Positions 24,721-27,636 of a stretch of DNA of 64,000 nt are shown piece by piece (the first letter of the stretch is position 1; every line of letters starts with the position of its first letter). The notes beneath the pieces were generated by a model, which did not search any database, was not told where the DNA came from, and was given only the letters and a program-made list of their open reading frames with translations. Origin of the DNA: Bacteroidaceae bacterium (GTDB lineage: Bacteria > Bacteroidota > Bacteroidia > Bacteroidales > Bacteroidaceae); assembly GCA_024698925.1 (NCBI GenBank), contig JAILQO010000031.1:62001-126000 (forward strand), written 5' to 3'. A program made the position numbers and the translations under genes.

Positions 24721-24776
24721 ACTCTTGAACTCCTCAAACCCTTTAAACTTTTTAACCCTTATAAACTATATTGCCT

Positions 24777-26300
24777 ATGAACCTGCTTACCATTGATCCG
24801 TCAGCCATTGATTGGGCCAGAGCCCAGTTTGCGCTGACAGCCATTTACCATTGGCTCTTTGTTCCCTTGACTTTGGGAGTTGGCCTCATCATGTCCATTA
24901 TGGAGACCAAATACTATCGTACTGGCGATGCCTTTTGGCGTGGCGCGGCACAATTTTGGCAGCGCCTATTCGGAATCAACTTTGCGCTGGGCGTAGCTAC
25001 TGGCATTATCCTTGAGTTTGAATTCGGCACCAACTGGAGCAACTACTCCTGGTTCGTGGGCGACATCTTTGGCGCTCCACTGGCTATCGAGGGTATTGTA
25101 GCCTTCTTCATGGAGAGTACCTTCGTGGCCGTGATGTATTTCGGTTGGGAGAAGGTGTCGCACGGCTTCCACCTGGCTTCTACGTGGTTGACATGGTTGG
25201 GCGCAACGATCTCTGCCTGGTGGATTCTTGTGGCCAACGCTTGGATGCAATGTCCCGTGGGCTGCACGTTCAACCCTGATACGATGCGCAACGAGATGAC
25301 CTCGTTCTTCGATGTCGCTCTTTCGCCCTTTGCCATCGGCAAGTTCTGTCATACGGTTACCTCGTCCTGGATTGTCGGCGCTGCATTCTGCGTGGCGGTA
25401 TGCTGCTGGTATCTGCTCAAGAAACGCGAGACCAAACTCGCCTTGGAGAGCTTGAGGATAGGTGCTGCCGTTGGACTTTTTGCGGCTGTGCTGGCTGCTG
25501 CCACAGGTCATAAGTCGGCACAGGATGTCGCTTGCAAACAGCCTATGAAGCTTGCTGCAATGGAGGCGCTGTATGATGGCGGCACAGGTCAGGGACTCAA
25601 GGTGGTAGAGGGTATTGAAGTGCCCTACGCCCTCTCGTTCATGGCCACCAACGATTTCAACGGCTATGTCCCTGGTATCAATGACCTATTAAAAGGTTAC
25701 ACGCGCGAGGACGGCACCGTAGAACCTTCCGCACAGGAGAAAATGATGCGTGGGCGCCAGGCGATAGAGTCGCTGGCCGCCTATCGGCAGGCCAAAGCAG
25801 AGGGCGCCAATCAGGCCACCCTCGCCCCCTTGCTCGCTTCTCTCCAGGAGAACATGCCCTATTTCGGTTACGGATACATCAAGGACGAGTCCGAGCTGGT
25901 ACCTCCCATTGCCGTCAACTTCTGGGCCTTCCGCGTCATGGTTGGCGTGGGCTGTTTGCTCATCCTTTTCTTTGCTGTTGTTCTTGCTGCCACGTGTCAA
26001 TGGCCCAAGAAGTGGTGGCAGAAGTGCGATATCACGAAGCTTCCGTCCTGGCTTTATTGGCTGGCAGTTGCGCTCGTACCCCTGACTTACGTAGCCTCAG
26101 AGAGTGGCTGGTTGGTGGCTGAGCTCGGACGTCAGCCCTGGACCATCCAGGATATGCTGCCCATCGGCGCTTCCGTTTCCGATATCGGCAGTTTTGCCGT
26201 CGCCACTACCTTCTGGCTCTTCCTGATTCTCTTCACCATCCTGCTGACGGTGGAAATCAACATCATGATTAAGCAAATTAAAAAAGGACCACAACTATGA
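24777..26300 (+). CDS. cydA: Cytochrome bd ubiquinol oxidase subunit I
   Basis: ARAQFALTAIYHWLFVPLTLGVG, GWLVAELGRQPW; ORF-track start 24771 is TTG, ATG at 24777. Confidence 0.97.
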   Translation: MNLLTIDPSAIDWARAQFALTAIYHWLFVPLTLGVGLIMSIMETKYYRTGDAFWRGAAQFWQRLFGINFALGVATGIILEFEFGTNWSNYSWFVGDIFGAPLAIEGIVAFFMESTFVAVMYFGWEKVSHGFHLASTWLTWLGATISAWWILVANAWMQCPVGCTFNPDTMRNEMTSFFDVALSPFAIGKFCHTVTSSWIVGAAFCVAVCCWYLLKKRETKLALESLRIGAAVGLFAAVLAAATGHKSAQDVACKQPMKLAAMEALYDGGTGQGLKVVEGIEVPYALSFMATNDFNGYVPGINDLLKGYTREDGTVEPSAQEKMMRGRQAIESLAAYRQAKAEGANQATLAPLLASLQENMPYFGYGYIKDESELVPPIAVNFWAFRVMVGVGCLLILFFAVVLAATCQWPKKWWQKCDITKLPSWLYWLAVALVPLTYVASESGWLVAELGRQPWTIQDMLPIGASVSDIGSFAVATTFWLFLILFTILLTVEINIMIKQIKKGPQL

Positions 26301-27484
26301 GTTACGAATTTCTTCAGCACTACTGGTGCTTCATCGTCGCCCTACTCGGCGCTCTGCTCGTATTCCTGCTCTTTGTTCAAGGTGCCAACTCCGTTGCCGG
26401 CAGTTTAGGTCAGACAGAAGCCGGCCGACGGCTTATTTATAATTCCACGGGCCGCAAATGGGAACTGACCTTCACCACTCTCGTCACCTTCGGCGGTGCC
26501 TTCTTCGCCTCCTATCCCCTCTTCTATAGCACCTCGTTTGGCGGTGCCTACTGGCTTTGGATGCTGATTCTCTTTACGTTTGTGCTGCAAGCCGTCAGCT
26601 ACGAGTTCCAAAACAAGCTCGGCAACTTCTTGGGTCCCAAGACCTTCCAATTCTGCCTCACCCTCAACGGTCTCCTCGGTCCGCTGCTCCTTGGTGGTGC
26701 CGTTGCCACCTTCTTTGAAGGCTCTAACTTCATCGTTGAGAAAGGCAACATCGTAGATCTCCCCTCCTCTGGGGAGGGGTTGGGAGTATGCCAAGCTATC
26801 TCCTCTTGGGCTAATGCTAGCCATGGCCTCGATGCCTTACTCAATCCTTGGGTGCTGATCTTCGGCTTTGCTGTCGTTTTTCTGGCGCGCACGTTGGGTA
26901 TCCTCTACGTAATGAACAACATCGATGACGAAGACATTCGTTTGCGCTGTCGCAGCCGCCTCATCGGCGCTGCAGTACCCTTCCTCATTCTCTTTGTAGC
27001 CTATTTCGTACACCTGCTCTTGAAGGACGGCTACGCCTACGACCCCGCCACAGGCATCGTCTTCATGGAGCCTTACAAGTACCTGCACAACCTACTCGAT
27101 ATGTGGTACCTGCTCGTCGTATTATTAATAGGTCTGGCACTTGTACTTTATGGTATCGCCATCGTTGTCTTCGGACGGTCTGATAAATGCTCTAGTTGTC
27201 AAATCCAAGCGATCTGGCCAGCAGGCATCGGCACGGTGTTGACCGTACTGGCCCTACTGCTTTGCTCCGCTTGGAACAATACAGCCTACTATCCCTCTAC
27301 GGCCGACCTGCAGTCATCACTCACCATGCAGAACTCTTGTAGTAGCGAGTTCACGTTGCGCACCATGTTCTACGTCTCCCTCCTCGTGCCCTTCGTTCTC
27401 GCCTACATCGCCTACTGTTGGCATGCTATGGACTGCAAGAAGCTAACACAGGAAGAGTTGAATGAGTCTGAGCACACATATTGA
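26297..27484 (+). CDS. cydB: Cytochrome bd ubiquinol oxidase subunit II
   Basis: ATGA overlap with cydA; CydB-like polytopic sequence (LQHYWCFIVALLGALLVFLLFVQGANS). Confidence 0.96.
   Translation: MSYEFLQHYWCFIVALLGALLVFLLFVQGANSVAGSLGQTEAGRRLIYNSTGRKWELTFTTLVTFGGAFFASYPLFYSTSFGGAYWLWMLILFTFVLQAVSYEFQNKLGNFLGPKTFQFCLTLNGLLGPLLLGGAVATFFEGSNFIVEKGNIVDLPSSGEGLGVCQAISSWANASHGLDALLNPWVLIFGFAVVFLARTLGILYVMNNIDDEDIRLRCRSRLIGAAVPFLILFVAYFVHLLLKDGYAYDPATGIVFMEPYKYLHNLLDMWYLLVVLLIGLALVLYGIAIVVFGRSDKCSSCQIQAIWPAGIGTVLTVLALLLCSAWNNTAYYPSTADLQSSLTMQNSCSSEFTLRTMFYVSLLVPFVLAYIAYCWHAMDCKKLTQEELNESEHTY
26761..26786. repeat. GC-rich palindromic repeat-like insertion inside cydB coding sequence
   Basis: CCCCTCC-TCTGG-GGAGGGG-TTGGGAG; translates in frame to LPSSGEGLGV between NIVD and ISSWANASHGLD. 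Confidence 0.55.
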
Positions 27485-27490
27485 CCCTGT

Positions 27491-27564
27491 ACTACTGTTC
27501 CACAATTGCGGGAAGGGCTTTGCACAATTGCGGAAAAGGCTTCCCGCAATTGTGGAACAGTAGT
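27491..27564. repeat. 23-bp perfect inverted repeat with internal extra copy; possible bidirectional terminator
   Basis: ACTACTGTTCCACAATTGCGGGA (27491-27513) and its reverse complement (27542-27564); loop carries a third CACAATTGCGG (27523-27533); between convergent cydB and sufS. Confidence 0.85.
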
Positions 27565-27573
27565 CGCGCAAAA

Positions 27574-27636
27574 AGCGATATGCCTTATCGCTGCAAGAGA
27601 AAAGGCATATCACTATCGAAGATATGGCATATCGCT
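27574..27636. repeat. Second palindrome cluster built on AGCGATATGCC / GGCATATCGCT
   Basis: AGCGATATGCC 27574-27584; AAGGCATATC 27602-27611; GGCATATCGCT 27626-27636 (exact reverse complement of first). Confidence 0.75.

Follow-up and report, generated by a model that had tools for sequence, protein, structure and literature searches.

The cydB gene in the window (the whole 64,000-nt stretch of contig that was analyzed) contains, in frame, one copy of a 34-nt palindromic repeat that is present in about 70 full-length copies in the same rumen-type Prevotellaceae genome and is absent from most CydB relatives. The repeat is very probably a REP/REPIN-like selfish element whose intragenic copies persist only if they are in frame and occupy a flexible loop, a linker, or a terminus. 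Many of the genes that such copies overlap are housekeeping genes, and translation of mobile intergenic DNA into loops of proteins seems to occur in this bacterial group.

The host gene (positions 26297 to 27484, plus strand) is an intact ORF for the 395-residue cytochrome bd oxidase subunit II, identified by its relatives and by the solved CydB 6rko_B. It lies directly 3′ of its operon partner cydA (24771 to 26300, plus strand; subunit I, 509 residues, identified from sequence and gene order), the end of cydA and the start of cydB sharing 4 nt. The element, CTCCCCTCCTCTGGGGAGGGGTTGGGAGTATGCC, occupies positions 26759 to 26792 on the plus strand, and its codons 155–166 (L155 to Q166) translate to LPSSGEGLGVCQ. 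A first-pass annotation of this DNA had recognized a palindrome in frame within cydB, and this is indeed found as CCCCTCCTCTGGGGAGGGG (CCCCTCC-TCTGG-GGAGGGG) at 26761 to 26779; the element, however, runs on past the palindrome through an asymmetric tail, TTGGGAGTATGCC (26780 to 26792, plus strand; genome consensus YYGGGGGTGGGYC), which was delimited from alignment A2 and the other copies and which sets the orientation of the element. As single-stranded DNA the palindrome folds at −10.1 kcal/mol (z = −2.4). A chance origin was rejected: the palindrome pattern gave no match in 100 shuffled versions of the window, its simple form occurs at 34 places in the genome versus one for the reversed control, and the window copy matches covariance model R1 (C7:88759-88792) with E = 2.1e-7. 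An assembly artefact was likewise rejected, as the CydB insert recurs across the metagenome-assembled genomes (MAGs) of L021, L054, L186, and L189. Separately, a 74-nt near-perfect palindrome with ungapped 37-nt arms that are 86% complementary (ACTACTGTTCCACAATTGCGGGAAG.../...CTTCCCGCAATTGTGGAACAGTAGT, 27491 to 27564) lies just 3′ of the cydB stop, followed by a second inverted repeat at 27574 to 27614. The core 14-mer of the first was found nowhere else among the loci examined, and the two could be terminators or another palindromic element.

CydB homology is full-length and covers both flanks of the insert (relatives and 6rko_B, E = 2.5e-20). An AlphaFold2 model (pTM 0.83, mean pLDDT 79.7) places the insert in residues 147–175 (26735 to 26821, plus strand), all with pLDDT <50, between predicted helices 113–144 and 176–181; on this model, the copy is in a flexible loop between predicted transmembrane helices, and it most likely has little or no effect on how the oxidase functions. 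Counted from the residue after the conserved K.N up to IS.W, the loop has 10 residues in 65 of the best 80 of 589 related stretches in genome contigs, typically LIDAGAITPI, versus 16 in the window. The first-pass annotation had relatives running almost directly from NI(I/V)D to IS.W; in fact, about seven residues are usual there (e.g., LID-AGAITPI-ISRW), and the window has 13 (LPSSGEGLGVCQA). Its insertion of roughly eight residues holds as an insertion relative to relatives but not in size: the element spans 12 codons, and the net gain is six residues. The native GAITPI-like stretch is absent from the window protein, and with a net gain of six, the arrangement therefore suggests that native sequence was replaced or that an insertion has eroded, rather than a clean insertion of eight residues.

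Some other CydB proteins have long segments at the same place, and many of these hold other recognizable repeats. Among the 133 loops that were readable in relatives and congeners, those of L021, L054, L186, and L189 contain another subtype of the palindrome family to which the window copy belongs (LPSLTGGVGGGSLV; the L021/L054 member is CTCCCCTCCCTCACGGGAGGGGTCGGGGGTGGGTC), and of that subtype only the tail is left in L016. The CCCCTCC..GGAGGG-like insert of L055 and L062 is shorter, and a nested hairpin in L092 is longer. Arrays of the heptamer TCAAYTN (encoding NSQLSTLNTQL and the like) are present in about eleven further loops, in tandem and in frame in L218, L216, L234, L220, L191, L219, L024, L070, L077, L087, and L201. 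On a CydB tree computed without the loop, about 20 changes of loop type are required, and well-supported branches alone demand at least seven for the heptamer type and at least four for the palindrome type; the branching near the window sequence is ambiguous, and the copies there and in L021 may stem from one event or from two. Sister species carry unrelated inserts at this loop, or none.

The consensus element consists of the palindrome CTCCCCTCC-n-GGAGGGG plus the tail YYGGGGGTGGGYC. In the 2.81-Mb genome (97 contigs), the covariance model, comprising palindrome and tail, found the approximately 70 full-length copies, 53 of them at E <0.01; because the model was built from copies trimmed to equal loop length, long-loop copies score lower. 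Copies are both intergenic and intragenic, which bears out the statement in the first-pass annotation that such repeats are common in these genomes, and the motif is not unique to cydB. Among 61 congeners, most of the compared genomes being MAGs, copy number ranges from 0 to 146 per genome, which fits a dynamic element. A variant of about 67 nt with a second hairpin nested in the loop was noted at L165:5255-5321, L166:2052-2118, and L167:370-436, the L165 copy being in frame in a gene; and near the contig ends of L173, L174, and L175 are paralogous short Gly/Asn-rich genes with the same in-frame element (GLTPDPSHVGEGSQNGGSN).

Using a codon-usage gene caller, 42 of the 70 distinct copies overlap called genes. 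Together with L098:1599-1633, which is in frame with an upstream ATG, 43 in-gene copies were entered in a depletion test; the observed share of 60% compares with about 88% under random insertion, the latter being the assumed coding fraction (p about 1e-8), and such depletion is as purging by purifying selection would give. In about 20 host genes, a positive coding signal is found on both flanks of the element. By Pfam, many of the hosts are conserved genes, and domains lie around or beside the element in alanyl-tRNA synthetase (AlaRS; a tail-out inverted pair, VAHPHPLPKGGEPISTESSSLGEELEVGL), a class-I tRNA synthetase and RpiB (both at the N-terminus), carbamoyl-phosphate synthase (where the CarA part joins the CarB part), HisB (separating two domains), RsgA, QueA (a pair), a MelB-type transporter and a GH2 beta-galactosidase (two copies each), and others; a further copy is within a Y-family polymerase gene, and in SusD- and DUF3472-type secreted proteins the element falls in the signal-peptide n-region. 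At L098, the element provides the C-terminus and the stop codon (...KTHPRPLP*), its TGA serving as the stop. Copies at N-termini could be untranslated leaders behind a wrongly placed start codon.

The same behavior is seen in a second genus. A strict palindrome-plus-tail pattern was found in 13 of 121 genomes of the family and in 7 of 30 genera, with zero matches to the control throughout. In G223, of genus g30, 13 of 22 sampled copies are within genes that have coding signal on both sides, and 11 of these 13 read (R)PTPxPS(H/R)EG or near it, all in one frame. The host genes include MiaB, CysRS, FeoAB, an ArgC-type reductase, an E2 acyltransferase, GH2, and GH95, among others. The G223 MiaB aligns end to end with the solved Bacteroides MiaB (7mjv) with about six extra residues at the element, and the CysRS alignment is broken exactly at the element. 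Predicted insert peptides within AlaRS, MiaB, or CysRS include LPSLTGGVGGGS and PTPNPSHEGGE. Several G223 units start with AGACCC, end with GGGTCT, and have two different hairpins within; the compound form AGACCC-(hairpin 1)-spacer-(hairpin 2, CTCTCCCCCTNACGGGGGAGCGGGGAGAG)-GGGTCT recurs in frame in many genes (L369-L386), nearly always in one frame (PTPNPSHEGGE...ALPLTGERGEGL).

We envisage the unit as REP-like, 34–38 nt long, with a hairpin and a G-rich tail, occurring solo or as tail-out inverted pairs similar to a REPIN or a very small MITE. Copies would reach new sites with the help of a trans-acting enzyme, and an in-gene copy would be retained only if the frame stays open, the net length is 3n, and the place is tolerant, as are disordered loops, linkers between domains, signal-peptide n-regions, and termini. 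A copy so retained would be translated into a short Gly/Pro/Ser-rich peptide, and the CydB copy would be one such survivor. Of 12 pairs of neighboring copies in the own genome, 9 have the tail-out arrangement (p = 4e-4). Common pair termini are AGACCC or GGCCC at the start and GGGTCT or GGGCC at the end, and many pairs have AGACCC...GGGTCT.

The divergent RAYT-like HUH transposases of the genus may tentatively be considered as the spreading enzymes, as TnpA-REP spreads REPs in Proteobacteria, although we hold this to be somewhat less than an even chance. The own genome encodes such proteins (the L141 family, with the motif MPDHVHL plus Y..NP), and the L141 protein matches NCBIfam REP_Tyr_transpos at 31.9 bits, below the cut-off of 80. 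Element number is associated with them within the genus, the 36 congeners having a RAYT-like protein carrying a median of 28 elements versus 2 in the 25 having none (p = 1.9e-4, rho 0.60, with no phylogenetic correction), and the control gene cydB has no such association (p = 0.67). Against this, R1 elements matched only three times in 18 RAYT-like loci, none close beside the gene, and a RAYT-like protein is not matched in G223 and G252 (g30), which outside the genus are the genomes richest in elements; the link thus holds within the genus only and is suggestive at most. The RAYT-like family itself is diverse and multi-copy with a long C-terminal domain (L141:218-1480 and L319-L336), several members have an in-frame tandem repeat in a linker (e.g., NAAGVHGNGE x4), and PF01797 and NF047646 recognize members only weakly.

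Somewhat unlikely, in our judgment, is spread by homologous processes, that is, gene conversion or template switching, during repair or replication, between hairpins and heptamer arrays and without a dedicated transposase. In its favor, two unrelated repeat types, palindromes and TCAAYTN arrays, are found at the same sites in CydB, AlaRS, and CarAB. In most congeners, only a short loop separates a conserved W from F(V/L)G in AlaRS, and relatives lack the palindrome pair of the own genome; L256 has another pair there, L263-L265 have heptamer arrays, and L268, L270, and L271 have other long inserts. At the CarA-CarB linker, the peptides are palindrome-derived in L337-L342; L343, L344, L347, and L351 have inverted heptamer arrays, L352 has a peptide resembling theirs, and other loci have other material. 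Since different repeats occupy these places in different congeners, all three sites have been filled repeatedly, as the main reading also holds. In addition, in both CydB and AlaRS the native residues of the loop are replaced rather than simply interrupted, and no target-site duplication was seen by eye. These two points, and the fact that no clean empty site was seen, empty sites being too diverged, also weigh against the main reading. The tail-out pairs with matching termini, however, look like a transposition unit. As a separate observation, CarA is fused to CarB in this genus (L171:967-3828, in G000:C8; L337-L352); the fused ORF is only 940–1010 residues in many species and 1450–1520 in others, of the large chain only the first half, together with the small chain, is represented by Pfam domains in the own-genome protein, and a separate carB of about 1080–1100 residues is also present in several species.

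A selected function for the insert in CydB, through loop tuning or a translation-slowing mRNA hairpin, is very unlikely. The insert is kept in frame, and the in-gene copies show an overall frame bias (same strand 4/3/12, opposite strand 12/1/3, with ambiguous anchors for L099 and L180), but at least part of this bias is due to stops in the hairpin loop, such as the L098 TGA, and the same-strand bias weakens to p = 0.25 once paralogue-like copies are removed; moreover, sister species have unrelated inserts or none at the CydB loop, and the same element resides in unrelated proteins. It is extremely improbable that the CydB loop is an ordinary hypervariable low-complexity loop drifting by slippage and point mutation and only incidentally like a repeat, because, even though its length and content vary in many relatives, the insert fits the 34-nt consensus including the asymmetric tail, other recognizable family members are present in relatives (as in L021/L054), and slippage would not yield one 34-mer at about 70 places; pure slippage is largely refuted.

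As for the REP/REPIN-like selfish element that is tolerated in frame, its inserts can be traced from gain to loss or other fate through about 140 species of the genus, and in annotation they distort alignments and start-codon calls. A more far-reaching proposal, that in-frame insertion of short intergenic repeats, both palindromes and heptamer arrays, is in this Bacteroidota clade a continuing, genome-wide process recurring at the same loops of conserved proteins in different species and driven by an undescribed mobilization system, is one that we consider rather doubtful; if true, protein loops are being rewritten repeatedly from selfish DNA.

A literature search, with most subscription papers outside its reach, turned up no account of this family, nor of palindromes lying in frame in housekeeping genes of Bacteroidetes or Prevotella. 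The small dispersed repeats and STRR heptamers of Nostoc are very short, some lie inside genes, and the heptamers form arrays; the present repeats are like them by description only, being very short and dispersed, some in genes, with heptamer arrays. MITEs have terminal inverted repeats with a target-site duplication; many pairs here have AGACCC...GGGTCT termini, no duplication was seen by eye, and empty sites are too diverged. REPIN/RAYT systems (Bertels and Rainey 2011, PMC3116915; Quentin 2018, PMC6006769) share many dispersed short hairpins, inverted pairs, and a divergent RAYT-like HUH protein in the own genome; they differ in that the elements here do not lie close beside a RAYT-like gene, and that gene is missing from some element-rich genomes. 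In the Bacteroidetes TnpA-REP subclasses 2.4 and 2.6, REPs are inserted in the transposase gene or have atypical structures, 2.6 being described as having "atypical secondary structures" (PMC6006769).

GTAG/CGTC-tagged REPs are 20–40 nt hairpins found as singles and dimers in ORFs, although most are intergenic; dimers encode 20–30 residues, tRNA synthetases are among the targets, an insertion at the same site of recB is reported for two Xanthomonas species, and REP termini can supply stops (Di Nocera 2013, PMC3733652). Short hairpins, singles and pairs in ORFs, affected tRNA synthetases, and a supplied stop are common to both, but the consensus here, CTCCCCTCC..GGAGGGGYYGGGGGTGGGYC, has neither a GTAG nor a CGTC tag, and more than half of the copies (42/70) overlap genes. 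RPEs are palindromic selfish repeats of ~100–150 bp in Rickettsia that are in frame in many unrelated genes and are translated (PMC10969869). The parallel with RPEs drawn by the first-pass annotation proved stronger than proposed, given the in-gene fractions in the own genome (42/70) and in another genus (13/22 sampled): both are palindromic, in frame in many unrelated genes, intergenic as well as intragenic, and found at flexible sites. It is a parallel and not membership because the units here are 34–40 nt (pairs about 70–115 nt), the phylum is Bacteroidota, and the consensus appears to be different. RPEs, the standard example of selfish repeats becoming protein parts, belong to an intracellular genome undergoing reduction; the same phenomenon seems to occur here in Bacteroidota genomes of 2–4 Mb, where several families of repeats are involved, the loops hit are the same in different species, and tRNA synthetase, ribosome-assembly, and respiratory genes are affected. 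Overall, the element acts like RPEs and intragenic REPs, and by the features tested it belongs to neither.
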